Origin: Rhodocyclaceae bacterium | GTDB taxonomy: Bacteria > Pseudomonadota > Gammaproteobacteria > Burkholderiales > Rhodocyclaceae | NCBI GenBank assembly: GCA_030824115.1 | Contig: JAVBYI010000020.1 | Span: forward strand, 62,001 to 126,000 | Direction: 5' to 3' | DNA: 64,000 bases | Shown: positions 615 through 63,369 of the stretch, one piece after another | How the letters are laid out: every line of letters begins with the position of its first letter | Position numbering within the stretch: the first letter of the stretch is position 1 | Made by a program: the position numbers and the translations under genes | Notes under the pieces: generated by a model | What the model was told of the DNA's origin: nothing | The model's input: the letters and a program-made list of their open reading frames with translations, nothing else | Database searches by the model: none

Positions 615-2579
615 ATGCCCGCCCAACCCGCCAAGCCAGACATTGACCGTATTTTTGCCGCTGATGGCCCGCTGGCACGGACGATTCCCGGCTATCGCCT
701 GCGCGATCAGCAAATCGCCATGGCGCGCGAGGTGCAGGCAGCCATCGAGGCGAATCGGCTGCTGGTGGCAGAAGCCGGCACCGGCACAGGAAAAACCTTC
801 GCTTACCTCGCCCCGGCGCTGTTATCCGGCGGCAAGGTGATCGTTTCCACCGGCACCAAAACCCTGCAGGATCAACTCTTCAATCGCGACCTGCCGATGG
901 TGCGCGATGCGCTTGGTATCCCCGTCACCATTGCCCTGTTGAAGGGGCGCAGCAACTACGTCTGCCCGCATCATCTTGATCGCGCGCTGACCGGCGGCAA
1001 GCTCAATTCGCGTGCCGAAGTTGTCCATCTGCATGCCATCGCGCGTTTTGCCAAAAGCACAGCCAGTGGCGACAAGGCGGAGTGCAGTGACGTGCCCGAG
1101 GATTCCGGCGCCTGGTATCTCGCCACTTCGACGCGCGAGAACTGCCTCGGCCAGGAGTGTGCCCACGTCAAGGAATGTTTTGTCCTCGCGGCACGGCGCG
1201 AGGCGCTGGTGGCGGATGTCGTCGTGGTCAATCACCATCTCTTCTTTGCCGACGTCATGCTCAAGGATGACGGCATGGGCGAACTGCTGCCGAGTTGCAA
1301 CACGATCGTCTTCGACGAGGCGCACCAGTTGCCCGAGGTGGCGGGTCTGTTCTTCGGCGAGTCGGTCGGCACCGGGCAGTTGCTTGATCTGGTGCGCGAT
1401 ACCAAGCTCGAAGGCATTGCCGCCGCCAAGGATTACGCGCCCTTGCAGGATGCCGCCAAGGCACTGGAAAAAGCCGCCAAGGATTTGCGCCTTACCTTTC
1501 GCCACGAGGGCCGGCTGGCCACCGCACAGTGGTTGCAGCATCCACAAGCCATCGAGGCGCTGGCGCATGTGCAGGCGATGCTCGATGAAATGAGCAAGCA
1601 TCTGGAAAGCCAAGCCGGGCGCTCGGAAGGGCTGGCGAATTGTCTGCGCCGTTGCGGCGAATTGGTGCTGCTGTTACGTCATTGGCAATCTGAAAAAGTC
1701 GGCGCTGGCGGGACGGCAGATGACGAAGACCCGCCGGTACGCTGGGTTGAAGTCACCAGCTATGGAGTGAGTTTCAACCTCACGCCACTTTCCGTGGCAC
1801 CCATTTTCAGAAAGCAGTTGGAGGGGCATCCGCGCGCATGGATATTCACTTCGGCCACGCTCGCGGTTGGCAGCGACTTCACCCACTATCGCGAGGCGCT
1901 CGGTCTGGCCGATGCCGCCACCGGCCGCTGGGACAGCCCCTTCGATTATCCGAACAACGGGCTGCTGTATTGCCCAACCGGCATGCCCGATCCGAATCAT
2001 CCTGAATACAGCGAAGCGGTTGTTGAGGCGGTATGGCCAGCCATTCGTGCTTCCAACGGACGTGCCTTCGTGTTGTGCACCTCGCTGCGCGCGATGCGGC
2101 GCATCCACGAACTGATCGATGAGCGCATCGCCCGTGCCGGACTGGAAATGCCGCTGATGATGCAGGGGCAAGGTTCGAAAACGGAACTGCTGGATCGCTT
2201 CCGCCAGTTGGGCAACGCTGTGCTGGTGGCGAGCCAGAGTTTCTGGGAAGGCGTCGATGTGCGCGGTGAGGCGCTCTCCCTCGTGGTCATCGACAAGCTG
2301 CCCTTTGCGCCGCCCGACGACCCGGTACTGGCAGCGCGCATCGATACGCTGAAGAAGCAGGGCCGCAATGCCTTCTTCGAGGTGCAACTGCCGCGTGCCG
2401 TCATCAGCATGAAGCAGGGCGCCGGCCGGCTGATCCGCGACGAAACCGATCGTGGTGTGCTGATGGTCTGCGATCCGCGCATGGTCGACAAGCCCTATGG
2501 TCGGCGCATCTGGCAAAGCCTGCCGCCGATGCGGCGCACCCGCGAGATCGGTGAGGTGGAAGCATTTTTTGAGAGTTGA
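615..2579 (+). CDS. ATP-dependent DNA helicase, DinG/YoaA (XPD-like) family
   Basis: A 654-residue superfamily 2 helicase of the iron-sulfur XPD type. Visible motifs are Walker A GTGTGKT near residue 60, cysteines spread through NYVCPHH, ENCLGQECAHVKECF (iron-sulfur cluster), the DEAH box in VFDEAHQLPE, and the C-terminal QGAGRLIR motif VI. The length is closer to YoaA than to the longer DinG. It probably unwinds structured or R-loop DNA during repair. The frame stays open upstream to 519, but that stretch overlaps the divergent metY-like start, so ATG 615 is preferred. One copy of the dispersed 20-bp motif codes for KVGAGGTA near residue 361, in a poorly conserved stretch. Confidence 0.9.
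   Translation: MPAQPAKPDIDRIFAADGPLARTIPGYRLRDQQIAMAREVQAAIEANRLLVAEAGTGTGKTFAYLAPALLSGGKVIVSTGTKTLQDQLFNRDLPMVRDALGIPVTIALLKGRSNYVCPHHLDRALTGGKLNSRAEVVHLHAIARFAKSTASGDKAECSDVPEDSGAWYLATSTRENCLGQECAHVKECFVLAARREALVADVVVVNHHLFFADVMLKDDGMGELLPSCNTIVFDEAHQLPEVAGLFFGESVGTGQLLDLVRDTKLEGIAAAKDYAPLQDAAKALEKAAKDLRLTFRHEGRLATAQWLQHPQAIEALAHVQAMLDEMSKHLESQAGRSEGLANCLRRCGELVLLLRHWQSEKVGAGGTADDEDPPVRWVEVTSYGVSFNLTPLSVAPIFRKQLEGHPRAWIFTSATLAVGSDFTHYREALGLADAATGRWDSPFDYPNNGLLYCPTGMPDPNHPEYSEAVVEAVWPAIRASNGRAFVLCTSLRAMRRIHELIDERIARAGLEMPLMMQGQGSKTELLDRFRQLGNAVLVASQSFWEGVDVRGEALSLVVIDKLPFAPPDDPVLAARIDTLKKQGRNAFFEVQLPRAVISMKQGAGRLIRDETDRGVLMVCDPRMVDKPYGRRIWQSLPPMRRTREIGEVEAFFES
1698..1717 (+). repeat. Dispersed 20-bp motif, copy 1 (exact)
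   Basis: GTCGGCGCTGGCGGGACGGC preceded by AAAAA. It lies inside the helicase gene and codes for KVGAGGTA in a variable region between conserved helicase motifs. Confidence 0.95.
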
Positions 2580-2592
2580 AATGGAGGAGCAA

Positions 2593-2898: not shown

Positions 2899-2916
2899 TA
2901 ACGATCCGCGCGAAAT

Positions 2917-2936
2917 ATCGGCGCTGGCGGGACGGC
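2917..2936 (+). repeat. Dispersed 20-bp motif, copy 2 (1 mismatch)
   Basis: ATCGGCGCTGGCGGGACGGC, first base A instead of G, preceded by GAAAT. It is intergenic, 18 bases after the DUF1330 stop and 26 bases before the sigma-54 promoter. Confidence 0.9.
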
Positions 2937-2962
2937 GTAGTCCGTAGCCCTACATTTCTCAT

Positions 2963-2978
2963 TGGCATACTAATTGCA
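2963..2978 (+). promoter_or_regulatory. Sigma-54 (-24/-12) promoter
   Basis: TGGCATACTAATTGCA matches the RpoN consensus TGGCAYR-N4-TTGCW, with GG and GC separated by exactly 10 bases. The predicted transcript start is near 2990, about 23 bases before the ATG at 3013. It implies activation by an enhancer-binding protein; no clear upstream activator site was recognised. Confidence 0.75.
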
Positions 2979-3012
2979 CAAACGCACTGCGTTTAACAAA
3001 TAGAGACATGCC

Positions 3013-3909: not shown

Positions 3910-3924
3910 CGTTGCGTCCCAAAT

Positions 3925-3944
3925 GTCGGCGCTGGCAGGACGGC
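3925..3944 (+). repeat. Dispersed 20-bp motif, copy 3
   Basis: GTCGGCGCTGGCAGGACGGC preceded by AAAT. It ends 5 bases before the beta-lactamase ATG at 3950, so its AGGA supplies the only Shine-Dalgarno-like sequence of that gene. Confidence 0.93.
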
Positions 3945-3949
3945 AAGTA

Positions 3950-4723
3950 ATGGCAAAGCTATTTCTCCTAGTCCTGTGCCTTGGTGTTTCATGCTTCGCC
4001 CGGGCGGACGAAGCGGCCATTGGCCGTTTGTTCAATACGGCCGGCATCGCTGGCACGCTGGTGGTCGAGTCCGCGCGGAGCGGGCAGCGTTATGTGCATG
4101 ATGCGGTGCGTGCGCGGCAGGCGTTTCCGGCGGCTTCGACTTTCAAGGTGCTCAATACACTGATTGCGCTGGATGAGGACGTGATTTCCGGTATGGACGC
4201 GGTGATTCCGTGGGACGGTACACGCCATGAAATGGCGGATTGGAATCGCGACCAAACCCTGGCGAGTGCGTTCCGGCTCAGTTGCGTGTGGTGCTATCAG
4301 AGATTGGCGCAGCAGGTCGGTGCGGCGAAGTATCCGGGCCATCTGCGGCAGGCGCGCTACGGGCAGTTGCGCGAGCCGTTCGATGTCACGCAGTTCTGGC
4401 TCGACGGTTCGCTGACTATCGATGCCGAACAGCAGGTGGCCTTTCTCCGGCAGGTGGTTGAGCGCCGCCTGCCTTACCGGCCCGCCCACTATGACACGCT
4501 CAAGTCGATCATGCTGGCCGAGACGGGGCCGACCTACCGTCTCTATGCAAAGACCGGCTGGGCGGCGCGCAGCAAGCCAGGTATTGGCTGGTACGTGGGA
4601 TATGTGGAAACCGGCGACGACACCTGGCTATTCGCCCTCAACATCGACACCCGCAGCGCGGCCGATCTGCCGTTGCGCAAGCAGCTGGTGATGGATGCGC
4701 TGCGCGTTGTGGGCATTTTGTAA
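3950..4723 (+). CDS. Class D (OXA-type) beta-lactamase
   Basis: A 257-residue secreted serine beta-lactamase. A signal peptide (MAKLFLLVLCLGVSCFARA) is followed by the class D motifs: S63-T-F-K66 with the nucleophile and the lysine that is carbamylated in this family, SCVW near residue 110, YGQ where most OXA enzymes have YGN, and KTGW near residue 203, then GWYVGYVE. ATG 3950 is preferred over the in-frame ATG at 3923 because it starts the signal peptide. It stands alone, convergent with recJ, with no mobile element nearby, so it looks like a resident chromosomal enzyme. The substrate range cannot be read from sequence. Confidence 0.9.
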   Translation: MAKLFLLVLCLGVSCFARADEAAIGRLFNTAGIAGTLVVESARSGQRYVHDAVRARQAFPAASTFKVLNTLIALDEDVISGMDAVIPWDGTRHEMADWNRDQTLASAFRLSCVWCYQRLAQQVGAAKYPGHLRQARYGQLREPFDVTQFWLDGSLTIDAEQQVAFLRQVVERRLPYRPAHYDTLKSIMLAETGPTYRLYAKTGWAARSKPGIGWYVGYVETGDDTWLFALNIDTRSAADLPLRKQLVMDALRVVGIL

Positions 4724-4737
4724 CGCAACACCGCAGG

Positions 4738-6441: not shown

Positions 6442-7427
6442 GCCAGTTCGGTCAGTGAGCCGGAGTGGCGCCAGAAGCGCCAGAGGTTGCCGCGCACCAG
6501 CGAGAAAACCGTGGCATGCGCATCGCCATGCAGGTGGGTGCCGACAAGGCGCAGGGCGCGACATTCGCCGCGCCTGAGGGCGGTGATGGCCGGGAGAATC
6601 CAGCGTTCATCAAGCTCCAGCAGGGCGAGGCGCCAGGTCATGGCGTTGAGGTTGCGCGCCGGATCGGCCAGTTTGTCAAAGTGACACAGGACACTGCCGG
6701 TGGCCGGTTGATAACGGTCGGGTGGCGGAATGCAGGCAACACTACATTGAGCCGCGAGGCCGGCGAACAGCGCATCCGCACTCCAGATCACCTGATAGTC
6801 GCAGTGCAGCGCACTGGGCATAGGCAGGGCGCCCATGCCCCAGGGCCACAGGCTGTTGATGGCAGGACGCTGCGTTGCTTCGCGAGCCTGGTTGACCGGA
6901 TGGGCATGCAGAATTGTTTGTGCTTCGGCAATCAGGCGCCGCCATGCCGGGCCATCCAGGCCACCGGGTAGGGACGGATCGACCGGCTGGCCGATGCTGT
7001 CGGGCAGACAGCGCGTTTCCAGCAGCAGCGAACGCGCCAACTGCAGGTGCCAGTGGGCTGGCTGGGTGGCGGAGAGCGTGCCCCAGTCCGCAAAAACCGG
7101 TTGGATGGCCTCGATCAGCGCGGCGGCTTCGTTCGCATCGATCTCTGCGCTTGCGAGGGTGACGCCTTCGCGGGAAACCTGCCAATGGACGGGGTCGAGG
7201 CACAGCCATTGGCCGGATGCCGTCTCGCCAGCGCCGACTTTTCGCAGAGCGGCGGCCGGTAGTGGTTTGGGGGTGCCGAAGGCCTGGGCCAGCCAGTCTC
7301 TGTCCTCGTGGTGGTGCTGCCCGCGCCCTAGCAACAGCGGCAGGGCTTCGGTAGACAGGTCAAAGACAGTATCGGCCAACACAGACGTTGGCAGCAGCAA
7401 ACCCGGTGCGTAAATTGTCAATTCCAT
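6438..7427 (-). CDS. Conserved hypothetical protein (COG4255-like), upstream of recJ
   Basis: A 329-residue cytoplasmic protein. The segment INSLWPWGMGALP and the C-terminal LELDERWILPAITALRRGE resemble the betaproteobacterial family often labelled as a phosphoglycerate-mutase-related or regulatory protein (COG4255). None of the metal-binding motifs of a real phosphoglycerate mutase is visible, so that label should not be taken as function. It overlaps recJ by 4 bases. The dispersed motif codes for KVGAGETA at about residue 63, in a variable region. Confidence 0.75.
   Translation of the reverse strand: MELTIYAPGLLLPTSVLADTVFDLSTEALPLLLGRGQHHHEDRDWLAQAFGTPKPLPAAALRKVGAGETASGQWLCLDPVHWQVSREGVTLASAEIDANEAAALIEAIQPVFADWGTLSATQPAHWHLQLARSLLLETRCLPDSIGQPVDPSLPGGLDGPAWRRLIAEAQTILHAHPVNQAREATQRPAINSLWPWGMGALPMPSALHCDYQVIWSADALFAGLAAQCSVACIPPPDRYQPATGSVLCHFDKLADPARNLNAMTWRLALLELDERWILPAITALRRGECRALRLVGTHLHGDAHATVFSLVRGNLWRFWRHSGSLTELA
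7219..7238 (-). repeat. Dispersed 20-bp motif, copy 4
   Basis: On the minus strand GTCGGCGCTGGCGAGACGGC preceded by GAAAA. In-frame KVGAGETA within the COG4255-like gene. Confidence 0.93.
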
Positions 7428-12969: not shown

Positions 12970-13639
12970 AGTGCTCAGTTGTACCGGCCTGAAAAAATCC
13001 TTCCGCCAGGGCGCGGAGGAAGTGCATGTGCTGGCAGGCGTCGACCTGAATGTCGGCGCTGGCGAGACGGCCGCCATCATCGGCACCAGCGGGTCGGGCA
13101 AGAGCACGCTGCTGCATCTGCTCGGCGGGCTGGATATGCCGACCGCCGGGTCAGTCGCCCTGCAAGGGAAGGACCTTTCGCAGGTCTCCGAAACGGAACG
13201 CGGCAACCTGCGCAATCAGCAACTCGGTTTCGTCTATCAGTTTCACCACCTGCTGCCCGAATTCTCGGCGCTGGAAAATGTGGCGATGCCCCTGTTGATC
13301 CGGCGCATGGCCAAGCCAGCCGCGTATGAGCAGGCCGCTGCGATCCTGACCGAAGTGGGCTTGGGCACACGCCTGACGCATCGCCCCGGCGAACTCTCCG
13401 GCGGCGAACGTCAGCGCGCGGCACTGGCGCGGGCGCTGGTGACCCAGCCGGCCTGTCTGCTGGCCGATGAACCAACCGGCAACCTTGATCGGCATACCGC
13501 CGACGAAGTTTTTGCGCTAATGCTGCGCATGAATGCCGCCCATGGCACCAGCCTCGTCATCGTCACGCACGACGCCGCGCTGGCGGCGTCCTGCCAGCGC
13601 CGGCTGTTGTTGCAGGATGGGCTGCTAGCGGCGGCTTAA
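12962..13639 (+). CDS. lolD: Lipoprotein-releasing ABC transporter ATPase LolD
   Basis: A 225-residue ABC ATPase. Walker A is GTSGSGKST, the Lol-type [21 protein letters not shown] segment is present, the signature is [15 protein letters not shown] and Walker B is [12 protein letters not shown]. It powers lipoprotein release by LolC. The sequence just before Walker [13 protein letters not shown], is encoded by a perfect copy of the dispersed motif. Family members have VxEGExxAIVG at the same place with the same length, so the motif has replaced the family sequence rather than being inserted. Confidence 0.95.
13052..13071 (+). repeat. Dispersed 20-bp motif, copy 5
   Basis: GTCGGCGCTGGCGAGACGGC preceded by GAAT. 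It codes for VGAGETA immediately before the Walker A loop of LolD, a conserved position. Confidence 0.9.
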
Positions 13640-14535: not shown

Positions 14536-14588
14536 TCTTGAGTTCCTTAGCAGTCAGATGTTCGAATAGGACAGACCACGTTAAAAAA

Positions 14589-14608
14589 GTCGGCGCTGGC
14601 AGGACGGC
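14589..14608 (+). repeat. Dispersed 20-bp motif, copy 6
   Basis: GTCGGCGCTGGCAGGACGGC preceded by six A. Intergenic, 3 bases beyond the vapC stop codon, between the AT-rich Sel1-like gene and the VapBC pair. Confidence 0.93.
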
Positions 14609-14611
14609 GCA

Positions 14612-15914: not shown

Positions 15915-16445
15915 TCAGCGGCGCTTGCGCTGATGCCAACTGCGCACCAGCCAGTAGCGCCAGCCTACGCGAATCGCCACGTAACCCAGTACGGCAAACA
16001 CTGTCGCCAACAGCAACACGCCAACGATCAGCGGCCAGCCCAGTTGAACGAGCCAAGTGGCCAGCGCCAGCAGCGAATCGCCCGGATGACTGGCCGAGAA
16101 TTCCGGCGGGGCAATGAATGCGTTTTCTGCCCCTAGAATCAGGCTGCCGAGCCAGAAGGCAAAAACGTACAAGGGGATGAATGTGACCGGGTTGGTGTAG
16201 AGCGTGGTGAATATCGCCAGCGGCAGGTTGATGCGAAAAATCACGGCACAAAGCGCCGCGCTGACCATCTGGAACGGCGGCGGAAACAGACCTGTAAACA
16301 GGCCGACCGCCACCGCGCCGGCGGCCGAGCGGCGGTTCAGGTGCCACAGGCGCGGGTGCAGGAGGGTGTTACGAAACGGGGCCAGCATGCGATTCTCATG
16401 GATCGCGGCGTGGTCGGGTAGGTATTTGCGGAGCCAATGGCGCAT
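15915..16445 (-). CDS. DUF2062 family membrane protein
   Basis: A 176-residue inner-membrane protein with about three hydrophobic segments (AAGAVAVGLFTGLFPPPFQM; VTFIPLYVFAFWLGSLIL; PLIVGVLLLATVFAVLGYVA). The GLFxGxxP and TNPVTxxPLY features are diagnostic of DUF2062, of unknown function and often found beside comEC in Betaproteobacteria, as here. It is divergent from comEC, and their 5' ends nearly touch. Confidence 0.85.
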   Translation of the reverse strand: MRHWLRKYLPDHAAIHENRMLAPFRNTLLHPRLWHLNRRSAAGAVAVGLFTGLFPPPFQMVSAALCAVIFRINLPLAIFTTLYTNPVTFIPLYVFAFWLGSLILGAENAFIAPPEFSASHPGDSLLALATWLVQLGWPLIVGVLLLATVFAVLGYVAIRVGWRYWLVRSWHQRKRR

Positions 16446-16460
16446 GGGGGCATTTTAGGC

Positions 16461-18755
16461 ATGCCGTGGGGAGCGCTGGCGTTTGCGCTGGGCGTGTGGC
16501 TGCTTCAGCAGACTGCCGTCCTGCCAGCGCCGACTTTTCTGATGGCGGGCGGCGTGGCCGGCTTGCTGTTGGTATTGCAACGGCGTTATCGCGGGCTGAT
16601 TCTGGTCGGATCTTGCTTGCTCGGTTTTGGCTGGGCGGGCGGTTTTGCTCATTGGCGTATGAGCGATGCCTTGCCGGTTGAGTGGGAGGGGCGCGATGTC
16701 GAGGTGGTTGGCGTGGTGACCGACCTGCCACAGCGCTTTGAAAGAGGCGTGCGCTTTACGTTTGCGGTGGAACAGGCTGAGGGGCTGGTGCCGAAGCGCA
16801 TTGCGCTCTCGTGGTATCGCCACATCGAGCCGGAGATTGAAGAGGAGGGCGATGAGGAGTCGGCGCCGAGTGCTCTTCCCCTGCCGCGAGCCGGCGAGCG
16901 CTGGCGTTTCCTGGTGCGCCTGAAACGGCCGCACGGCAATCTCAATCCGCATGGTTTCGACTACGAAGGCTGGTTGCTGGAACGCGGCATCCGCGCGACG
17001 GGTTACGTCAGAAAGTCGGTGCTGACAGGACGGCTTGCGGAGGCGACGTATAGCGTCGGGGCGTTGCGTGAATCCATCCGTTCGCGCATGTTGCGTGCCT
17101 TGCCGGATCATCCCTACGCCGGCGTGCTGGTGGCGCTGGCGATTGGCGACCAGCAGGCGATTGCCCCCGAGTTGTGGCGGCTGTTCGCGGCAACGGGGAT
17201 TACGCACTTGATGTCGATCTCGGGGCTGCATGTGACGATGATCGGCGGCCTGCTGGCCTTGCTGGTGGGCTGGGGCTGGCGTCGTTCGGTGCGATTGCCG
17301 CTGATCTGGCCCGCGCAGAAGGCCGCTGCGGTTGCCGGTCTGCTTGGGGCGGCGGCGTATGCGCTGCTGGCCGGCTTTGGCGTTCCAGCGCAGCGCACCT
17401 TGTTCATGCTGGCGATTGTCGTGGCTGCCATGCTCTCCGGCCGAGCGCTGACAGCTGCGCAGATTCTCGGAACCGCACTGGTGGCCGTACTGTTGGTCGA
17501 TCCATGGGCGGTGCTGGCGGCGGGATTCTGGCTGTCGTTCGCGGCAGTGGCTTTCCTGTTCAGCATTGCCTCGGGGCGGGCGGCGCGCCACTGGGTGCTC
17601 GAATGGCTGCGTGCGCAATGGGCGATTACGCTTGGCCTGATCCCTGTGCTGCTGGCTATGTTCCAGCAGTTTTCGCTGGTGTCGCCCGTGGCCAACGCGC
17701 TGGCGATTCCAGTGATCAGCCTGCTGGTGACGCCGCTGGTGCTACTGGGCAGTGTGCCGGGGTTTGCGTGGTTGCTGGGGGTTGCGCATGCCGTGCTGGA
17801 TGGCTTGATGATGTTTTTGGTCTGGTTGGCCGGCTTGCCCGGTGCGCTCTGGCAGCAGCACGCCCCGCCGCCGTGGAGCGTGCCGCTGGCGGTGCTGGGG
17901 GCGCTGTGGCTGTTGCTGCCGCGCGGTTTTCCGGCGCGCTGGCTGGGCGTGGCGCTCTTTCTGCCGCTGTTCTTCATTTTCCCCGAGCGGCCGGGGGCGG
18001 GCGAGTTGTCTCTCAGCGTGCTTGATGTGGGGCAGGGGCAGGCCATTCATGTGCAGACGGCCACGCACGATCTGTTCTACGACACCGGGCCGGAACTGGG
18101 CGGCACGGATGCGGGTGCGCGCCACGTACTGCCTTACCTGCGGTCGATCGGCGTGCGCCAGCTTGATACGCTGGTGATCAGCCATGCCGACAAGGATCAC
18201 GCGGGCGGTATGGACGCGGTACTGGCCGGGCTGCCGGTTGCTGATCTGGTTGGCTCTGTTCCGAAAAGTCGGCGCTGCGAGGACGGCATGAGTTGGACAT
18301 GGGATAACGTCAAGTTTCAATTCCTGCATCCAGTCGCTGCCGATTATGAACGCAGGCGTACCACCAACGCCATGAGCTGTGTGCTGCTGATTGAATCCCC
18401 ACATGGTCGGCTGTTGATTCCGGGCGATATCGAGGGCGCGGCCGAAGCGGCGTTGCTGGCGCGCCACGCGACCGCGTTGCAGGCGGACATCCTGATCGCT
18501 CCGCATCATGGCGGCCGCAAAACTGCCTCTGCCGATTTTGTGATGGCGGTGGGCGCCCGCGAGGTAATCTTCCCCGTCGGCTATCGCAACCGCTTTGGTC
18601 ATCCGCTGCCGGTGGTGGCGGAGCGCTTTGCCGCCAGCGGGGCGCGGCTGCATCGAACCGACCAGACGGGAGCGGTTCGTGTCCGCTTGCGGGAGGGGAT
18701 GGTTGATATTGTCCATGAGCGCCAGCGCCGGACGCGTTACTGGCATATGCACTGA
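16461..18755 (+). CDS. comEC: DNA internalization channel protein ComEC/Rec2
   Basis: A protein of 764 residues (772 if the in-frame ATG at 16437 is used) that carries single-stranded DNA across the inner membrane during natural transformation. In order: N-terminal helices with DUF4131, the competence domain (GDQQAIAPELWRLFAATGI; HLMSISGLHVTMI) with many membrane helices, and a C-terminal metallo-beta-lactamase-like domain (LDVGQGQAIHV, ISHADKDHAGG, IAPHHGGRKT). ATG 16461 starts the first helix directly. Three copies of the dispersed motif lie in the gene, at residues about 19, 185 and 603, more than in any other gene here. Confidence 0.93.
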   Translation: MPWGALAFALGVWLLQQTAVLPAPTFLMAGGVAGLLLVLQRRYRGLILVGSCLLGFGWAGGFAHWRMSDALPVEWEGRDVEVVGVVTDLPQRFERGVRFTFAVEQAEGLVPKRIALSWYRHIEPEIEEEGDEESAPSALPLPRAGERWRFLVRLKRPHGNLNPHGFDYEGWLLERGIRATGYVRKSVLTGRLAEATYSVGALRESIRSRMLRALPDHPYAGVLVALAIGDQQAIAPELWRLFAATGITHLMSISGLHVTMIGGLLALLVGWGWRRSVRLPLIWPAQKAAAVAGLLGAAAYALLAGFGVPAQRTLFMLAIVVAAMLSGRALTAAQILGTALVAVLLVDPWAVLAAGFWLSFAAVAFLFSIASGRAARHWVLEWLRAQWAITLGLIPVLLAMFQQFSLVSPVANALAIPVISLLVTPLVLLGSVPGFAWLLGVAHAVLDGLMMFLVWLAGLPGALWQQHAPPPWSVPLAVLGALWLLLPRGFPARWLGVALFLPLFFIFPERPGAGELSLSVLDVGQGQAIHVQTATHDLFYDTGPELGGTDAGARHVLPYLRSIGVRQLDTLVISHADKDHAGGMDAVLAGLPVADLVGSVPKSRRCEDGMSWTWDNVKFQFLHPVAADYERRRTTNAMSCVLLIESPHGRLLIPGDIEGAAEAALLARHATALQADILIAPHHGGRKTASADFVMAVGAREVIFPVGYRNRFGHPLPVVAERFAASGARLHRTDQTGAVRVRLREGMVDIVHERQRRTRYWHMH
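16515..16534 (-). repeat. Dispersed 20-bp motif, copy 7
   Basis: On the minus strand GTCGGCGCTGGCAGGACGGC preceded by GAAAA. In comEC it is read from the other strand as TAVLPAPTF, at the end of the first membrane helix. Confidence 0.93.
17015..17034 (+). repeat. Dispersed 20-bp motif, copy 8 (degenerate)
   Basis: GTCGGTGCTGACAGGACGGC preceded by GAAA, with two changes in the core. In comEC it codes for KSVLTGRL, a different reading frame from most other copies. Confidence 0.75.
18268..18287 (+). repeat. Dispersed 20-bp motif, copy 9 (degenerate)
   Basis: GTCGGCGCTGCGAGGACGGC preceded by GAAAA. In comEC it codes for KSRRCEDG, in the metallo-beta-lactamase-like domain. Confidence 0.82.
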
Positions 18756-18830: not shown

Positions 18831-21437
<2,607 letters not shown>

Positions 21438-24471: not shown

Positions 24472-24485
24472 GCAGGCAACAATGT

Positions 24486-24505
24486 GCCGTCCCGCCAGCC
24501 CCGAC
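24486..24505 (-). repeat. Dispersed 20-bp motif, copy 11 (1 mismatch)
   Basis: On the minus strand GTCGGGGCTGGCGGGACGGC preceded by CAAAA. Intergenic, covering the place where the -35 element of the SRP RNA promoter would be. Confidence 0.92.
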
Positions 24506-24513
24506 TTTTGAAC

Positions 24514-25337: not shown

Positions 25338-26930
25338 ATGTCCTATCTCGTTCTGGCCCGCAAGTGGCGCCCCAAGTCGTTCGACACGCTGGTCGGTCAG
25401 GAGCATGTCGTGCGTGCCTTGACGCACGCGCTTGAGCAGCAACGACTCCATCACGCTTACTTGTTCACCGGGACGCGCGGTGTGGGCAAGACGACCATCG
25501 CGCGCATCCTTGCCAAGGCCCTGAACTGTGAGCAGGGGATTACCCCGACGCCTTGCGGTGTCTGCAGCGCCTGCCAGGAAATCGATGCCGGCCGTTTCAT
25601 CGATTATGTCGAGATGGATGCGGCCTCGAACCGGGGTGTGGACGACATGGCGTCACTGCTGGAAAAAGCGGCCTACGCGCCGAACAGCGGTCGCTACAAG
25701 GTGTACATGATCGACGAAGTGCATCAGCTCTCCGGTCACGCCTTCAATGCGATGCTGAAGACGCTGGAAGAGCCGCCCGAGCATGTGAAGTTCATCCTCG
25801 CCACGACTGATCCGCAGAAGATCCCCGTGACGGTGCTGTCGCGCTGCCTGCAGTTCAACCTCAAGCAGATGCCGCCCGGCCATATCGTTGACCATCTGTC
25901 GCGCGTGCTGGAAGCCGAGGGCGTGGTTTTCGAACCGGCCGCGTTGCGCCATCTGGCCAAGGCAGCCGCCGGTTCGATGCGCGATGCGCTATCGCTGCTT
26001 GATCAGGCGATTGCCCACGGTGCCGGCCGCATCGAAGACGAAGGCGTGCGTACCATGCTCGGCACGGTGGGCGATGATCATCTCTACGCTGTCCTGGATG
26101 GTTTGGCGGCGGGCGACATCCACGCCATGCTGGCGGTGGCGAACACCATGGAGGCGCGCAGTCTCAGCTTCGATTCCGCGCTACAGGAACTGGCGACCTT
26201 GTTCCATCGCATTGCGCTGCTGCAGTTTGCGCCGCAGGCGATCCTTGATCAGGCTGAGTGCGAACGTCTTGCACCGTATGCCGAGCGCTTCGACGCCGAG
26301 TATTTGCAGCTGTGTTACCAGATCGTCATCCACGGCCGCGATGAACTGGCGCTGGCCCCCGATGAAGCGGCCGGCTTTACGATGACGCTGTTGCGTCTGC
26401 ATGCTTTCCGTCCGGGGGGCAATGAAAAGCCTGTTGCTGGTGCGTTAGCTCCGGTACGTACTGCGCCGGCCCCTGTTACGCCGGTTGCTACGGCTGCGCG
26501 GCCCGCGCCTGCCGTCCCGCCAGCGCCGACTTTTACCGCAGCCCCCGCTGCTTCAATCGATCCCGATGACTGGCACGGTCTGGTGGCCACGCTGCCATTG
26601 ACCGGCATGGTGCGCCAGTTGGCACAGCATTGCGAACTGGTCAGCCAGACTGACTACGCCATCATGCTGCGCATGGCGCCGGCCCACAAGCACCTGCAGG
26701 TGCATCAGGACAAACTGCGTGCCGAACTGGCAAAGCACTATGACCGGGCGCTGACGCTGGAAATCAAGCTGGACGTCCCTGCCGGCGAAACCCCCAAGGC
26801 ACGCGCCGACAGCGAAAAACGTGAGCGTCAGGATCGTGCCATTGCTGCCATCGAAAGCGATCCTTTTGTACGCGAGGCCTGCGATCTCTTTGACGCGAGC
26901 ATCGACGAATCCACCATCAAACCCCTCTGA
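25338..26930 (+). CDS. dnaX: DNA polymerase III subunit tau (and gamma)
   Basis: A 530-residue clamp-loader ATPase. AAA+ features: Walker [10 protein letters not shown], zinc cysteines CGVCSAC, Walker [22 protein letters not shown], sensor 1 ATTDPQKIP and the SRC motif LSRCLQF. Domain III ends near residue 365. An Ala/Pro linker follows, holding a perfect copy of the dispersed motif (AVPPAPTF near residue 392), then the tau C-terminal domain that contacts the polymerase. I did not see an obvious AAAAAAG slippery site for gamma. It is followed by ybaB after 11 bases. Confidence 0.95.
26511..26530 (-). repeat. Dispersed 20-bp motif, copy 12 (exact)
   Basis: On the minus strand GTCGGCGCTGGCGGGACGGC preceded by TAAAA. 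Read as AVPPAPTF in the Ala/Pro linker of DnaX. Confidence 0.95.
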
Positions 26931-34362: not shown

Positions 34363-35002
34363 ACTGATTGTGTTTGACTGGGACGGTACGCTGATGGATT
34401 CGGCGGCGATGATCGTCGATAGCGTCCAGGCGGCCGCGCGCGACCTAGGCCTTGAGCCGCCCAGTGACGAACGGGCGCGCCATATCATTGGACTGGGCTT
34501 GGAGGAAGCGCTGCGTTACGCTATGCCGGACTTGCCTGAAGCGCGCTATGAGGAACTGGTTGAGCGTTATCGCCATCACTACTTGTCGCGCGATCACGAG
34601 TTGGTGCTGTTCGCGGGCGCGACAGCCCTGATTGAAGCGCTGGCCGCACAAGGGCGCTGGCTGGCCGTGGCAACCGGGAAGTCCCGGCGCGGGCTTGATC
34701 GGGCACTTGAGCACAGCGGACTGGGCGCGTTTTTCCATGGCACACGCTGTGCCGATGAATGCCATTCCAAGCCGCATCCGCAGATGCTTGACGAGTTGAT
34801 GGCCGAACTTGCCGTCTCGCCAGCGCAGACTTTGATGATCGGTGACACCACGCATGATTTGCTGATGGCGAAGAATGCGGGGGTCGATGCAGTCGGGGTG
34901 AGCTATGGGGCGCATCCGCGCTCAGCCCTGCAGGCTGCCGAACCGCGCTATCTGGCTGATTCGATGGCGGATCTGGACGCATGGTTGCGCGCCAACATCT
35001 GA
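34349..35002 (+). CDS. HAD-family hydrolase, phosphoglycolate-phosphatase-like
   Basis: A 217-residue HAD phosphatase. Motif I is FDWDGTLMDS (nucleophile and acid aspartates), motif II is the threonine of VATGKS, motif III is the lysine of CHSKPHPQM, and motif IV is MIGDTTHDLLMA. The cap between residues 20 and 85 is the helical C1 type. The substrate may be phosphoglycolate or another small phosphate ester. The dispersed motif (one mismatch) codes for AVSPAQTL just before motif IV. It overlaps rluC and the Rieske gene. Confidence 0.88.
   Translation: MNRYELIVFDWDGTLMDSAAMIVDSVQAAARDLGLEPPSDERARHIIGLGLEEALRYAMPDLPEARYEELVERYRHHYLSRDHELVLFAGATALIEALAAQGRWLAVATGKSRRGLDRALEHSGLGAFFHGTRCADECHSKPHPQMLDELMAELAVSPAQTLMIGDTTHDLLMAKNAGVDAVGVSYGAHPRSALQAAEPRYLADSMADLDAWLRANI
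34811..34830 (-). repeat. Dispersed 20-bp motif, copy 14 (core mismatch)
   Basis: On the minus strand GTCTGCGCTGGCGAGACGGC preceded by CAAA. Read as AVSPAQTL before HAD motif IV. It might partly reflect family constraint. Confidence 0.8.
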
Positions 35003-39492: not shown

Positions 39493-39506
39493 GGGATGCA
39501 ACCTAC

Positions 39507-40475
39507 ATGATCTATTCCAGAATTACCGGCACTGGCAGTTATCTCCCCGGTGCACCTTGCAGCAATGCTGATCTGATCGCACGGCATGGCCTGGACTCGA
39601 CGCCCGAGTGGATCGTTGAACGTACCGGCATCCACTCGCGACATCTTGCGCCGGCGGGTGTCGCGGCCAGTGATCTGGCCCTGGAGGCCAGCCGTAACGC
39701 ACTTGCCGCAGCGGGGAAAGAACCGAACGATATCGACCTGATCGTTCTCGCGACATCGACCCCCGATTACATTTTCCCAAGTACGGCCACCATCCTGCAG
39801 GACAAGCTCGGCATGAGCAACGGCGCTGCGGCCTTCGACCTGCAGGCAGTCTGCGGCGGCTTTATCTACGCCTTGTCGGTGGCCGACAAGTTCATTCGCT
39901 CCGGTTCGCATCGCCGTGCCTTGGTTGTCGGTGCCGAAACCTTCTCGCGCATTCTTGACTGGAATGATCGTGGTACCTGCGTGTTGTTTGGTGATGGCGC
40001 AGGTGCCGTCGTGCTGGAAGCCAGTGATAAACCGGGTCTGCATGCGACGGCCCTGCATGCCGATGGCCGTTATCGCAACATCCTCTCGGTACCCGGGCAT
40101 CTGCAAGGCGGACAGCCGACCGGCGACCCATTCCTGCGCATGGATGGGCAGGCGGTGTTCAAGTTCGCCGTCAAGGTGCTGGCCGAGGTGGCAGAAGAAG
40201 TAATGGTCGCCGCGGGCATGACATCGGAGCAGGTGACCTGTCTGGTGCCGCATCAGGCCAATATCCGCATCATGCAGGCAACGGCCAAGAAGCTGCATCT
40301 GCCCGCTGAAAAATGTATCGTCACCGTTGATCACCACGGCAATACCTCGGCGGCCTCGATTCCGCTGGCGCTTGATGAGGCCGTGCGTTCCGGAAAAGTC
40401 GGCGCTGGCGATACGGCATTGCTGGAAGGTGTCGGTGGTGGTTTCACCTGGGGCGCCGCCATTATTACTTTGTGA
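39507..40475 (+). CDS. fabH: 3-oxoacyl-ACP synthase III (FabH)
   Basis: A 322-residue condensing enzyme that starts fatty acid synthesis from acetyl-CoA and malonyl-ACP. The Cys of LQAVCGGF, the His of VPHQANIRI and the Asn of HHGNTSAAS form the catalytic triad. The C-terminal sequence [20 protein letters not shown] aligns without a gap with the family, but KVGAGDTA is coded by the dispersed motif where relatives such as E. coli FabH have RIKPGQLV-like residues. ATG 39507 has GAGGGA upstream. Confidence 0.96.
40398..40417 (+). repeat. Dispersed 20-bp motif, copy 15 (1 mismatch)
   Basis: GTCGGCGCTGGCGATACGGC preceded by GAAAA. In-frame KVGAGDTA near residue 297 of FabH, by substitution at a conserved length. 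Confidence 0.92.
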
Positions 40476-43779: not shown

Positions 43780-43790
43780 GCAGGCGGGCA

Positions 43791-44219
43791 GTGCACCTGC
43801 CCCTTGTCATTCCGGTTGGAGCATCGCGCCGCTGGCGTGCCCTGTTGTGGGGTGCGCATGCGGTTGCGATCGCGTCTGTCCTCCCGCTTGATCTGGCTTG
43901 GGCGCTGCGGCTCTGCCTGGCGGTGCAGGTCGGCTTTTCTCTCTACCGGATGCTGACTCGCCCCCAGCAAATCACTCAGATGAGTTTGGGTGCCAAGGGT
44001 GAATTGGCGCTTGAGACAAAAGTCGGCGCTGGCGGGACGGCACTGATTCTGCCCGAAACGGCCGTGCTGCCCGGCATGATCGTACTGGTGCTGCGCTTTG
44101 AAGGAAAACGTATTCCGCTGGTGCTGATGGCGGATGCGCTTGATCCTGAGGATGATCGCCGCTTGCGGGTCTGGCTGAACTGGCGCGCCAAACGATCCGA
44201 ATTTAGCGCCTTGGTTTGA
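43791..44219 (+). CDS. Small membrane protein, YgfX/CptA-like
   Basis: A 142-residue protein. Two hydrophobic segments near the N-terminus ([37 protein letters not shown]), then a soluble beta-rich part. This resembles the YgfX toxin-like membrane family in layout, and the gene position between fabF and nadB is usual for it in Betaproteobacteria. The dispersed motif (exact) codes for KVGAGGTA near residue 77. The start is probably GTG 43791. It overlaps nadB tail to tail by 17 bases. Confidence 0.65.
44022..44041 (+). repeat. Dispersed 20-bp motif, copy 16 (exact)
   Basis: GTCGGCGCTGGCGGGACGGC preceded by CAAAA. In-frame KVGAGGTA in the YgfX-like gene. Confidence 0.95.
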
Positions 44220-46569: not shown

Positions 46570-47133
46570 ATGAGAAAAGATTCTGAACTGTCGGCGCTAT
46601 TCGATGGCGAACTGGAAGATCACGAGGTGGCGTCCATCGTGCGGGCTGCACTGGCCGAGGATAAACAGTTGGCTGACTGGCAGGCTTATGCACTGATCGG
46701 CGATCAGTTGCGGGGCGAGCGAAGCCATTCGCCGAACTTTGTCGAGAACGTCATGGTTCGCGTGCGAGAGGAACCGGTGGTGCTTGCGCCGGGTAACCTG
46801 GTACGGCGCCAATCCCATCATCCGCTGCTGGCCCTCGCGGCCTCTGTCGCCGGGGTGGCTGTCGTGGGGTGGTTGGCCCTGACGGGTATGCCTCAAGTTC
46901 AGGGGCCTCAAATCGCCTATGTTGCCGTCTCGCCAGCGCCGACTTTTGCCAAGGCTGAACAGATTAAGCCAACCAAACTAACCGCACCCCAAGTGCAGCA
47001 AGTTAGTGCAGACCGTGCCGAGATGGGCGAGTATCTGGTGGCGCATCATGCCCATGCTTCCGCGTTTCATTTGGGTGAGGGCGTCCAGCATGTCCGCTCG
47101 GTCTCCATGACAGGGGATGCGGGACGCCCATGA
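46570..47133 (+). CDS. rseA: Anti-sigma-E factor RseA (MucA)
   Basis: A 187-residue protein. The cytoplasmic domain (LSALFDGELEDHE, DWQAYALIGDQLRG) binds RpoE, a membrane helix lies at residues about 82-106 (LLALAASVAGVAVVGWLAL), and the rest is periplasmic for RseB contact and DegS cleavage. The dispersed motif codes for AVSPAPTF near residue 119, right after the membrane helix. It overlaps rseB by 4 bases. Confidence 0.93.
   Translation: MRKDSELSALFDGELEDHEVASIVRAALAEDKQLADWQAYALIGDQLRGERSHSPNFVENVMVRVREEPVVLAPGNLVRRQSHHPLLALAASVAGVAVVGWLALTGMPQVQGPQIAYVAVSPAPTFAKAEQIKPTKLTAPQVQQVSADRAEMGEYLVAHHAHASAFHLGEGVQHVRSVSMTGDAGRP
46924..46943 (-). repeat. Dispersed 20-bp motif, copy 17
   Basis: On the minus strand GTCGGCGCTGGCGAGACGGC preceded by CAAAA. 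Read as AVSPAPTF in the periplasmic part of RseA. Confidence 0.94.
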
Positions 47134-55551: not shown

Positions 55552-56301
55552 ATGATTGATCTCGGTGTCAATATCGACCACGTGGCGACCTTGCGGCAGG
55601 CGCGCCGTACCTACGAGCCGGACCCCGTCTGGGCGGCGGCGGCGGCCCATCTGGGCGGTGCAGATTGCATCACCGTGCATTTGCGTGAGGACCGCCGTCA
55701 CATCGTCGATCGCGATGTCGAACTGCTGCGGCAGAGCGTGCAGGCCAAGCTCAATCTTGAAATGGCGGCCACCGACGAGATGGTCGGCATCGCCTGCCGA
55801 CTCAAGCCGGAAATGGTGACGCTAGTGCCCGAAGGGCGTCATGAGGTCACGACGGAAGGCGGCCTGGATGTGGCCGGGCAGCGTCCGCGCATGCAGGATG
55901 TGGTGGCCAAACTGCAAGCGGCAGGCATCTACGTCAGTCTGTTCATTGATGCCGAACTGAAGCAGGTCGAAGCGTCTGCGCAGGTGGGTGCCAGGGCTTG
56001 TGAAATCCATACCGGACCGTATGCCCATGCCTTCCATGAAAGCGGGCGCGACATCGAAATGCCGGCTGCGCAGGCGGAGCTGCAAAAAGTCGGCGCTGCC
56101 GGGACGGCAATTGTCGGCCTCGGCATGCGCTTCAATGCCGGCCATGCCCTCAACTATTTCAACGTCCAGCCGATTGCCGCCTTGTCTGGTGTGCGTGAGT
56201 TGCATATCGGCCATGCAATTGTCAGCCGTTCGGTATTTGTCGGACTGGAGCAGGCCGTGCGTGAGATGAAACGTTTAATCCGCGAGGCCGCTACCGGATG
56301 A
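55552..56301 (+). CDS. pdxJ: Pyridoxine 5'-phosphate synthase (PdxJ)
   Basis: A 249-residue TIM-barrel enzyme that makes pyridoxine phosphate from 1-deoxyxylulose phosphate and 3-amino-2-oxopropyl phosphate. [53 protein letters not shown] and FNAGHALNY are conserved. Near residue 180, before the barrel strand leading to [13 protein letters not shown] is coded by the dispersed motif. It overlaps acpS by 4 bases. Confidence 0.96.
56089..56108 (+). repeat. Dispersed 20-bp motif, copy 18 (1 mismatch)
   Basis: GTCGGCGCTGCCGGGACGGC preceded by CAAAAA. In-frame KVGAAGTA in PdxJ. Confidence 0.92.
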
Positions 56302-58324: not shown

Positions 58325-59344
58325 TTATAGCCGCGCCGCACAAAACTTGACCAGATTTCCGGCAAGATTGCCATGCGCCTGAATTTGGGCGGCCCAATCC
58401 GGCGCTTGAGATGTGAGTGCCGGCAGGGCAGCGGCGAAAGTCGGCCAGTCAAGCGTACCCTTGCCGTTCCAGGCTTGGAAGAGGTACCGTGCCGCCGGTT
58501 CATTCGTGTAAAGGTTCAGGAAAGCATCGAGCTTGGCGAAATGTGTGTCGTCTGCCTGCGGATAAATTTGCCAGACGAAAGGCCGTTCGACCCACTGGGC
58601 GCGTACGAAACTGTCCTCGCCACGTACGAAGTTCAGGTGGCAGCGTGCAAGTAGCGCATCGTAGTCCGTCTGCGGCAGGAAGGGCAGCGCCTCCAGGCGC
58701 AGATTGCCGTGTTGGGCTGGTAGCGGTGTGCCGAGCCATGCTTCCACCTGCCGACGCGGTAGCCCGTTGCAGACATGGCAAACGATGGGGCGGTCGCCGT
58801 CGCGCCAGGCGGCCAGCAGTACGGGCAGTTGCGGGTTGTCGTAGCAGAACAGCGAGACTTCCAGCGGGCCCGTAAATGTCGGCCCTGGCGGGACGGCATA
58901 GTTTTTCTCCCGTAGCAGTCCGCCGGTCCCGGCAACGAAGCCCGGAAAGAAGAAATACTTATCCATGTCGACCTGCGGCGAAGGCAGGCCGTGACAACTG
59001 GCGACCCAAGCTTCGGCCGACAGATAGTCGAGATTGAGCCAGACCGGCGGTTTATCTCTGGCGATCATCGCCCGGACATAGCCGGGCGGCGGATTGCAGG
59101 CAAAGGCCTCGATCACCACGTCGGCGGCAGCGACGTCCTCGAAATCGCCTTCCCACTTGCATATCTCCACCGTCCGCTGGCCGGGGGCGAGCAGGGCGAT
59201 GGGGGTGGGATCGTCGATGAACAGGCGCACCCGCCAACCATGCTCAACTGCCAGTTGCCGCGCCAGCCGCCAGCAGACACCGGCATCGCCAAGATTGTCG
59301 ATAACGGTGCAGAAAATGTCGCAGGAAACTGGAGGGGAAGCCAC
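58325..59344 (-). CDS. earP: EF-P arginine-32 rhamnosyltransferase (EarP)
   Basis: A 339-residue inverting glycosyltransferase (DUF2331). The N-terminal [20 protein letters not shown] with the catalytic Asp, [12 protein letters not shown], and the nucleotide-binding [13 protein letters not shown] near residue 255 are diagnostic. It modifies Arg32 of EF-P with rhamnose from dTDP-rhamnose. The start is GTG 59344 without a clear ribosome site. The dispersed motif codes for AVPPGPTF near residue 150. It is followed by efp after 35 bases, forming an operon. Confidence 0.95.
58878..58897 (+). repeat. Dispersed 20-bp motif, copy 19 (1 mismatch)
   Basis: GTCGGCCCTGGCGGGACGGC preceded by TAAAT. Read from the minus strand as AVPPGPTF in EarP. 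Confidence 0.92.
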
Positions 59345-59355
59345 GATTTGAAAAT

Positions 59356-59375
59356 GTCGGCGCTGGGACGACGGC
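59356..59375 (+). repeat. Dispersed 20-bp motif, copy 20 (rearranged 3' half)
   Basis: GTCGGCGCTGGGACGACGGC preceded by GAAAAT. Intergenic, 11 bases upstream of the earP GTG on the opposite strand. The right half deviates from the consensus but keeps ACGGC. Confidence 0.82.
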
Positions 59376-59511
59376 CATTATCCATGACCTTTGACTGATT
59401 GACGCTGCGGACGGATACAGGTAGCGTTCGGCTATGCAAATGAAATTACAAAACCAGAGCGCGGCCTCTTTGATTCTCCGAGTCGTTGAATTTCCAATTC
59501 TTTCATTGACC

Positions 59512-60894: not shown

Positions 60895-60929
60895 AAGGGG
60901 TCAGGGTCAAACTGACTCAGACAGGAAAT

Positions 60930-60949
60930 GTCGGCGTTGGGCCGACGGC
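60930..60949 (+). repeat. Dispersed 20-bp motif, copy 21 (palindromic variant)
   Basis: GTCGGCGTTGGGCCGACGGC preceded by GGAAAT. Intergenic between the TPR gene and brnT. Unlike other copies it contains a perfect inverted repeat, GTCGGC/GCCGAC. Confidence 0.82.
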
Positions 60950-60969
60950 CTCTTGGCTGGACAGGCCGA

Positions 60970-60998: not shown

Positions 60999-61004
60999 AC
61001 GAGC

Positions 61005-61551: not shown

Positions 61552-61559
61552 CGCTGCGC

Positions 61560-61579
61560 GCCGTCCCGCCAGCGCCGAC
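61560..61579 (-). repeat. Dispersed 20-bp motif, copy 22 (exact)
   Basis: On the minus strand GTCGGCGCTGGCGGGACGGC preceded by GGAAA. It ends 5 bases before the uvrC ATG and fills the place of the ribosome-binding site. Confidence 0.95.
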
Positions 61580-61584
61580 TTTCC

Positions 61585-63369
61585 ATGCCCGAATCGGCTT
61601 TCGACAGCAAAACCTTTCTCGCCACGCTGACCGGGGCGCCGGGCGTTTATCGCATGCTGGCGGCTGACGGGGCGGTGCTCTATGTCGGCAAGGCGAAGAA
61701 CCTCAAGAAGCGCGTCTCGTCGTATTTTCAGAAGACCGGCCACAGCCCGCGCATTGCGCTGATGCTTCAGCAGGTGGCCGGCATGGAGACGACGGCGACG
61801 CGCTCCGAGGCGGAGGCGCTGATTCTTGAAAATACGCTGATCAAGAGGCTCAAGCCGAAGTACAACATTCTTTTTCGCGACGACAAGTCCTACGCCTATA
61901 TCGGGCTGTCGGGCAGTCCGTTTCCACGGCTTTTCTATCATCGCGGCGCTTTCGAAAAGAAGTCGCACTACTTCGGGCCGTTCCCGAGCAGTCTTGCCGT
62001 GCGCGAATCGATTCAACTGATCCAGAAGACCTTCCTGCTGCGTACCTGCGAGGAAGCCGTTTTTGCGCACCGTTCACGCCCCTGCATGCTGTACCAGATT
62101 CAGCGCTGCAAGGCGCCCTGTGTCGGGTTGGTGTCGGTAGAGGCGTATGCGGCCGATGTGCGGCTGGCCGAATTGTTCCTCAAGGGCAAGCATTCGGAGG
62201 TGATCGAGAATCTCACCCGTCAGATGGAGGAGGCCGCAGCCGCGCTGCGCTTCGAGCAGGCCGCCGCCTTGCGCGACCAGATCAGGGCCTTGCAGGCGGT
62301 TTTGCACCGACAGTACGTCAGTTCGACGAAGGATGCGGATGTCGATATTGTCGTCGCGGTCGTGGAGCGCGGCGAGCTGTGCGTCAATCTGGCGATGGTG
62401 CGTGGTGGGCTGCATCTGGGCGACCGCGCCCATTTTCCGCAGATGGATGGCGAGGCGGGCGCGGAGGAAGGATTGGTCGCCTTTCTTGAGCAGCATTACG
62501 TCGAACACGCTGCGCCACCACGCCTGATCCTAGATCCATGGCCGCTGGACGATTTGCCGGAGATATTGCCCGGCAGCGCGCCGCGCAATGAGATGGAGCG
62601 TGCATGGCTGGACATGGCGCGCAACAATGCCCAACTGGCATTGACCGCGCGGCGGCAGAACCGTACGCGTGCCAGCGGGCGGCTGGAAGCCTTGCGCGTT
62701 GCGCTTGATTTGCCTGAGTTGCCGCGCCGCATCGAATGCTTCGACATCAGTCACACGATGGGGGAGGGCACGGTGGCTTCGTGCGTGGTGTGTGTCGATG
62801 GCGCGATGAAAAAGAGCGATTACCGGCGCTTCAACATCGAGGGTATTACGCCGGGCGACGATTACGCGGCGATGCGTCAGGCGCTGACGCGGCGTTATGA
62901 AAAAGTCGGCGCTGGCGAGACGGCATCTCCTGATCTGGTGCTGATCGACGGCGGCAAGGGGCAGCATGGCGTGGCACGCGAAGTGTTCGCCGAGCTGGGC
63001 CTGAGCAATCTGGCCAGTATTGGCGTGGCCAAGGGGGAAGCGCGCAAGCCCGGGCTGGAAACGCTTTTCGTCCACGGCAGGGCCGAGCCGCTAGAATTGG
63101 TCATGGACAACGCCGGCTTCCACCTGATTCAGGAAATTCGCGACGAGGCGCATCGCTTCGCCATCGTCGGCCATCGGGCGCGGCGTGCCAAGCTGCGCGG
63201 GCGTTCGGCGCTGGAGGATGTGGCCGGCATCGGGCCGACGCGGCGCCGCAATCTGCTGGCGCAGTTCGGCGGGCTGGATGGCGTGAAAGCCGCTACGGTT
63301 GAGGATCTGTGCCGCGTTCCCGGCATCAGCCGTGCGTTGGCTGAAACCATCCACAAGCAACTGCACTGA
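61585..63369 (+). CDS. uvrC: UvrABC system protein C
   Basis: A 594-residue excision nuclease. GIY-YIG domain (PGVYRMLAADGAVLYVGKAK, residues about 12-90), UVR motif (residues 200-235), an RNase H-like nuclease domain with CFDISHTMGEGTVAS and LVLIDGGKGQ, and C-terminal helix-hairpin-helix motifs (LEDVAGIGPTRRRNLL). KVGAGETA near residue 440, just before LVLIDGG, is coded by the dispersed motif. No Shine-Dalgarno sequence precedes the ATG; another motif copy is there instead. Confidence 0.96.
   Translation: MPESAFDSKTFLATLTGAPGVYRMLAADGAVLYVGKAKNLKKRVSSYFQKTGHSPRIALMLQQVAGMETTATRSEAEALILENTLIKRLKPKYNILFRDDKSYAYIGLSGSPFPRLFYHRGAFEKKSHYFGPFPSSLAVRESIQLIQKTFLLRTCEEAVFAHRSRPCMLYQIQRCKAPCVGLVSVEAYAADVRLAELFLKGKHSEVIENLTRQMEEAAAALRFEQAAALRDQIRALQAVLHRQYVSSTKDADVDIVVAVVERGELCVNLAMVRGGLHLGDRAHFPQMDGEAGAEEGLVAFLEQHYVEHAAPPRLILDPWPLDDLPEILPGSAPRNEMERAWLDMARNNAQLALTARRQNRTRASGRLEALRVALDLPELPRRIECFDISHTMGEGTVASCVVCVDGAMKKSDYRRFNIEGITPGDDYAAMRQALTRRYEKVGAGETASPDLVLIDGGKGQHGVAREVFAELGLSNLASIGVAKGEARKPGLETLFVHGRAEPLELVMDNAGFHLIQEIRDEAHRFAIVGHRARRAKLRGRSALEDVAGIGPTRRRNLLAQFGGLDGVKAATVEDLCRVPGISRALAETIHKQLH
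62905..62924 (+). repeat. Dispersed 20-bp motif, copy 23
   Basis: GTCGGCGCTGGCGAGACGGC preceded by GAAAAA. In-frame KVGAGETA in UvrC, in a variable loop before a catalytic strand. Confidence 0.94.

Follow-up and report, generated by a model that had tools for sequence, protein, structure and literature searches.

A dispersed 25-bp motif of Rhodocyclaceae genomes as a candidate self-DNA uptake signal

The closest described counterparts of the element reported here are two kinds of self-DNA uptake signal: the DNA uptake sequences (DUS) of the Neisseriaceae, which have a 10-bp core (12 bp in the extended form) and ComP as their receptor, and the uptake signal sequences (USS) of the Pasteurellaceae, which have a 9-bp core. 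DUS are present in very many copies in and outside genes and form lineage dialects, with five Neisseriaceae genomes lacking an obvious DUS (PMC3630211). USS combine a core with conserved flanking segments, prefer non-coding DNA yet have many copies in genes, and fall into subclade types (PMC1626085). Their predicted receptor is ComN, and the two signals, named in two families, are held to have evolved independently (PMC12616744). Here, we describe a 25-bp motif that recurs throughout a 64-kb stretch of DNA from a Rhodocyclaceae bacterium (hereafter the window), throughout the genome to which this stretch belongs and throughout many related genomes. It belongs to another bacterial family and is unrelated in sequence to either core, and it shares most of the computable hallmarks of uptake sequences in both anatomy and evolution. 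Judged from sequence, it is probably a self-DNA uptake signal and, as such, an independent third family of these signals. More tentatively, this third family, evolved separately in the Rhodocyclaceae, may rest on a two-part word of 25 bp (AAAAGTCGRCGCTGG, four loose letters, ACGGY) whose dialects extend over at least seven genera, with a receptor that resembles neither ComP nor ComN and import that mostly proceeds without a canonical ComEA; this combination is possible, though we incline slightly against all of its parts holding at once.

The full motif reads AAA(A/T)GTCGGCGCTGGC(R)(R)GACGGC(A/G). Its limits were drawn from 151 sites, each with at most four mismatches, within 450 kb of the genome that contains the window (G000; 3.0 Mb in 24 contigs): conservation spans positions -3 to 21, comprising AAA(A/T) ahead of the core and a preferred A behind it, and no conservation was seen beyond these positions. 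An initial annotation of the window had described a 20-bp unit nearly always preceded by AAAA or AAAT; the A-tract in front proved to be right, the length too short. Its tally otherwise held on rescanning, with all 23 copies in place, 15 in plus and 8 in minus orientation, five of them exact and eight more with GA or AG at positions 13-14 as their sole deviation. At up to three mismatches the window yields 23 matches, namely 22 of those copies and a further one at 13585 (minus strand, three mismatches), the remaining annotated copy at 60930 having four mismatches. Shuffling confirmed that chance accounts for far less than one copy per 64 kb (mean 0.04 over 100 shuffles, largest value 1). A matrix built from 126 sites with at most three mismatches and at least two A's in front located 136 sites in 510 kb of G000, among which 50 agree with the 24-letter consensus throughout and 52 deviate at one position (102 of 136 at zero or one mismatch).

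Genome-wide, G000 contains 349 exact copies (reversed control: 0) and 771 copies at up to three mismatches (reversed control: 6), the latter divided almost evenly between the strands (382 forward, 389 reverse; 3 and 3 in the reversed control). The motif is thus not confined to the window. In a scan of 61 genomes, 18 of the 19 members of the same genus, G000 included, hold 453-805 copies; the only motif-free member is G005 with 14 copies. Across 395 genomes and 68 genera of the family, 291-845 copies were counted in 54 genomes belonging to six genera (18 in g1, 21 in g2, nine in g88, four in g70 and one each in g9 and g62), 87 to 98 copies in each of G064, G086 and G277, and at most 56 copies in the remaining 338, numbers that equal those of the reversed controls or exceed them up to a few-fold; as matrix and patterns were derived from G000, distant dialects are undercounted. 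A dialect-tolerant pattern applied to an order-wide draw of 300 genomes found 218-600 matches in four genomes, all of them Rhodocyclaceae, and 0-5 matches in each of the others. Scanning named genomes with a longer pattern returned nine stretches from five metagenome-assembled genomes, of which three are titled Rhodocyclaceae bacterium, one Sulfuritalea sp. and one Proteobacteria bacterium. Hundreds of copies are hence found both genome-wide and in relatives, at loci that are partly the same and partly different. The genome-wide signal proposed in the initial annotation is supported by copy number, strand symmetry, spread over six genera and, as discussed below, the lack of a hairpin excess in five tested copies and the origin by substitution.

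The distribution of the copies along the chromosome likewise recalls that of known uptake signals. Among the 136 matrix sites, 45 lie between genes, where only 14.7% of the DNA is found (P 7e-8), so that intergenic sites are over-represented according to a simple, unbenchmarked gene caller that called few genes in low-GC stretches. The other 91 sites are genic, in keeping with the earlier statement that the copies are not limited to intergenic DNA, and 66 of these 91 share one reading phase, with KVGAG(E/G)TA, or AV(P/S)PAPTF from the other strand, as typical peptides. A protein-level motif (KVGAGETA) was rejected, as the copies fall into several frames and both strands and also lie outside genes. 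The sites are spaced more evenly than under random placement (coefficient of variation 0.752 versus 0.945, P 0.001; the simulation placed sites without gene or GC constraints), and the mean gap between copies is 2.7 kb. Widely spaced copies on both strands without a tandem array rule out a CRISPR, as had been stated for the window. No orientation switch along the chromosome was detected among 58 exact copies in G001 (P 0.55), and we rejected a polar chromosome signal on this ground. This result also bears on the idea of a Chi-type recombination hot-spot signal that a RecBCD-like enzyme would read in the course of repair: known Chi sites measure 5-8 bp and follow the direction of replication, and a 25-bp motif without replication-direction bias in G001 makes such a signal very improbable, even if its frequency and genome-wide presence in genes and spacers would be as expected.

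When the matrix was re-estimated for each genome in stretches of 16 genomes, 13 had sites every 3.3-8.0 kb, with zero or one match in the controls, and several of them showed a dialect of their own. G at position 21 is shared by G016, G026 and G187; beyond this, G016 has G at 16 and C or G at 1, G026 C or T at 6, and G187 mostly T at 12. In G004 the motif ends in ACGGTG, the dialects of G002 and G004 resting on few sites (6 and 7). In G086, position 5 is A and the four letters at 12-15 are loose, so that the G000-based pattern undercounts this genome. In the sampled stretches, 2 sites each were found in G064 and G277 and none in G005. In a lepA tree built from 30 genomes, a branch with 99/98 support separates the 14 motif-bearing genomes, along with the motif-poor G064 and G277 and the motif-free G005, G020 and G124, from the rest. 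The tree requires four changes of the motif label, at least three of them demanded by well-supported branches, where G064 and G277 were scored as motif-bearing despite having almost no sites in the dialect sampling; the root is a midpoint root and six rows deviate in base composition. This pattern fits one gain and some losses, lepA being a single gene and as such weak evidence for the species tree. As a side observation, G277, with 87 matches a motif-poor member of the motif-rich genus g2, gave three HHH_3 matches above the cut-off in open reading frames (ORFs) of 181-314 aa, and the tested genus mates G019 and G110 gave none.

How new copies come into being was addressed by aligning orthologous stretches, each 20 kb long at most, of 20 relatives with G000. 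These stretches hold 2-5 sites each in 13 genomes, G000 included, and no sites in seven motif-free genomes or in the 8-kb stretch of the motif-bearing G007. Pairing each site with each relative gave 383 alignments, with the motif present in 208 and absent in 175; many pairs share one site and are not independent. In the absent class, which includes a few cases where a gap merely displaces the motif (for example G013 against a G011 site), net length change is zero in 116 of 175 alignments, compensating gaps being scored as zero, and only 2 are shorter by 20-30 nt. Against motif-free genomes, the length is unchanged in 47 of 67. In the both-present class, the identity of the site exceeds that of its flanks in 188 of 208 alignments, an excess that is partly built in because both sites had to match the matrix. 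Two loci illustrate the process: At fabH, G016 has its own dialect at the orthologous place, and at pdxJ, G007 and G009 have non-motif sequence of the same length. From the unchanged length and these two loci it follows that the copies most likely arise by substitutions in place rather than by insertion. The origin of USS by substitution was shown with the same kind of alignment test (PMC1626085).

These alignments also decide the case of a small mobile element, be it a repetitive extragenic palindromic (REP) sequence, a miniature inverted-repeat transposable element or something similar, that has been copied into hundreds of places. REP repeats, which are associated with RAYT proteins, are palindromic and placed between genes; the present motif has in common with them that it is short and exists in many near-identical copies. 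Such numbers of near-identical copies are typical of young transposons (PMC1626085). However, insertion is contradicted by the relatives that lack the motif without any net length change (116 of 175), an element-sized shortening being restricted to 2 of 175; moreover, the motif has no conserved flank, and five folded copies showed no hairpin excess over shuffles (z-scores -1.16 to 0.69). Moreover, 91 of 136 sites lie in genes. We discarded membership in the REP/RAYT class, in line with the initial annotation, which had denied an ordinary REP pattern, and regard a mobile origin of any kind as close to negligible in probability.

For the uptake signal that we favor, what we computed comprises copy number, strand symmetry, substitution origin, dialects, spacing, gene context and the presence of ComEC and pilins. 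A mechanism can be outlined as follows: The motif on free DNA would be bound by a receptor at the cell surface, probably a protein similar to type IV pilins. Same-lineage DNA would thereby be taken in preferentially, pass the ComEC channel and be recombined into the chromosome. Fragments with better-matching copies would enter more often, and copies created by point mutation would spread by recombination until a near-perfect consensus occupies hundreds of places, genic as well as intergenic. A shift in receptor preference would be followed by the copies and lead to dialects; loss of uptake or of its specificity would leave the copies to decay. ComEC was present in 52 of 52 genomes tested and pilin signatures in 16 of 16.

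Several observations weigh against this reading. The 25-bp word is about twice as long as known uptake cores. Close inverted pairs, in which some DUS copies occur, are nearly missing (one pair below 300 bp among 115 gaps). Since ComEC is found in motif-bearing and motif-free genomes alike, it does not discriminate between them, and the same applies to the ComP_DUS family, which was matched in 53 of 61 genomes, with and without the motif. The pilin genes beside ispH also occur in the motif-free G005 and the motif-poor G064. Unlike ComP for DUS, a receptor for the present motif is only postulated: The search by presence and absence yielded no motif-specific gene in the ComP_DUS scan or among the compared pilins, within the matches listed and for part of the loci. 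Out of 13 motif-bearing genomes searched with two models, only G187 and G105 yielded a short ComEA-type ORF. G001 gave a weak 234-aa match below the cut-off, G110 no match to either ComEA model, and the others an ORF of about 800 aa that we take to be Tex. The ComEA scan does not separate motif-bearing from motif-free genomes; the remaining motif-bearing genomes may have a divergent ComEA or a replacement. Helicobacter, for instance, uses another periplasmic binder, ComH. In the vicinity of the minor-pilin genes, the IspH-like gene of G000 (L350:3229-4149) itself has a motif copy (translated NVGAGGTA), where G005 and G064 differ in residues; the G000 version is one residue longer by eye.

Evidence from motif-poor stretches is to be read with similar reserve. 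One case is a 72-kb gap between exact copies (G000:C1, about 240300-312800), of which three 12-kb samples (36 kb) have a GC content of 0.47-0.51 versus 0.60 and contain zero matrix sites, weaker copies included. As the absence of exact copies was the reason for choosing this gap, the only new information lies in the missing weaker copies, the GC content and the gene content. Eight of its proteins were scanned and include members of epimerase, nucleotidyl transferase, DegT aminotransferase and glycosyltransferase families, besides others, which suggests an acquired surface-polysaccharide cluster. Another gap, with 2 sites in 24 kb, encodes a Mu-type transposase. In 2-kb blocks, motif density is 0 in the 16 blocks with GC <0.52 and climbs to 0.50 per kb where GC is >=0.64, a trend to which the selection of the stretches and the GC content of the motif itself contribute. 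Distribution gaps of DUS have been used to spot acquired islands (PMC7371117).

Some of these results would also suit a different function, in which a chromosome-maintenance or nucleoid-organizing protein binds the motif chromosome-wide, selection keeps the copies and the dialects track the protein. Such a protein could account for the high density, the strong consensus and the even spacing as well as for an absence from recently acquired DNA, and the scarcity of the short ComEA speaks in its favor. Yet the copies in G001 do not switch orientation as polar segregation signals do, and the occurrence of the motif-poor or motif-free G005, G020, G124 and G277 among motif-bearing genomes would be odd for an essential function. 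We therefore consider this explanation unlikely.

As to novelty, literature searches for the first 12 letters of the core and for uptake sequences in Rhodocyclales, Rhodocyclaceae or Sulfuritalea returned no report, subscription papers being mostly outside their coverage; papers listed for natural transformation and uptake in Rhodocyclaceae were unrelated to the motif, judging by title and opening of the abstract. The initial annotation had known of no described element with this sequence; this stands for the sequence as such, whereas the kind of element is a familiar one, its anatomy matching that of DNA uptake sequences. If the uptake reading is true, having a third case, this time from other environmental bacteria, should help to recognize what is general in why such signals arise, and the co-evolution of receptor and genome as well as species barriers would become comparable questions. 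The dialects would then be natural experiments, with the motif-poor relatives G005, G020, G064, G124 and G277 as controls. A word that marks the DNA of a lineage could also flag acquired islands and DNA passed to other families.

Copies were also noticed elsewhere. Two genomes of other families, G428 (contigs C3, C14 and C37) and G475 (C1, C5, C34 and C67), have five copies each, most of them perfect and some sharing one contig; it is possible that these represent DNA received from motif-bearing donors. A sequence filed as viral (IMGVR_UViG_3300009945_000063, L153:886-2238) contains five exact copies, mostly 316 bp apart, within a repeated stretch.

Table 1. Motif copies and the ComEC gene in the window. 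Gene names other than ComEC are presumed by us from the ORF translations.
Feature	Coordinates	Strand	Context
ComEC gene, DNA import channel	16437..18755	+	PF03772 match 17136-17924; contains three motif copies
Motif copy, 25 bp, exact core	1694..1718	+	inside helicase-like ORF 519-2579 (+)
Motif copy	2913..2937	+	between ORFs
Motif copy	3921..3945	+	at the 5' end of ORF 3923-4723, whose true start probably lies downstream of the copy
Motif copy	7218..7242	-	in ORF 6438-7427 (-), translated KVGAGETA
Motif copy	13048..13072	+	LolD-like ABC ATPase ORF 12962-13639 (+), just ahead of Walker A
Motif copy	14585..14609	+	between ORFs
Motif copy	16514..16538	-	in ComEC gene
Motif copy, 3 mismatches	17011..17035	+	in ComEC gene
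Motif copy, 3 mismatches	18264..18288	+	in ComEC gene
Motif copy, exact core	21035..21059	-	sensor-kinase-like ORF 18831-21437 (+), translated VPPAPTF
Motif copy	24485..24509	-	between ORF end (24471) and signal recognition particle (SRP) RNA (24527)
Motif copy, exact core	26510..26534	-	DnaX-like ORF 25338-26930 (+), translated VPPAPTF
Motif copy	30637..30661	+	RNase E-like ORF 30247-32964 (-), translated VSPAPTF
Motif copy	34810..34834	-	phosphatase-like ORF 34328-35002 (+)
Motif copy	40394..40418	+	FabH-like ORF 39489-40475 (+); present in 10/13 aligned relatives
Motif copy, exact core	44018..44042	+	ORF 43665-44219 (+)
Motif copy	46923..46947	-	anti-sigma-like ORF 46570-47133 (+)
Motif copy	56085..56109	+	PdxJ-like ORF 55552-56301 (+); present in 9/16 aligned relatives
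Motif copy	58874..58898	+	ORF 58325-59344 (-), translated VPPGPTF
Motif copy, 3 mismatches	59352..59376	+	between ORFs
Motif copy, 4 mismatches	60926..60950	+	between ORFs
Motif copy, exact core	61559..61583	-	just upstream of UvrC-like ORF 61585-63369
Motif copy	62901..62925	+	UvrC-like ORF 61585-63369 (+), translated KVGAGETA

At the gathering threshold, SRP RNA was the only known RNA family matched in the window. Two of its ORFs deserve brief mention: ORF 3923-4723 presumably encodes a protein resembling class D beta-lactamase-like proteins, and ORF 7577-9913 encodes a protein of 778 aa that we take to be a fusion of a cyclic-nucleotide-binding domain, an acetate kinase and a PduL-type phosphotransacylase.

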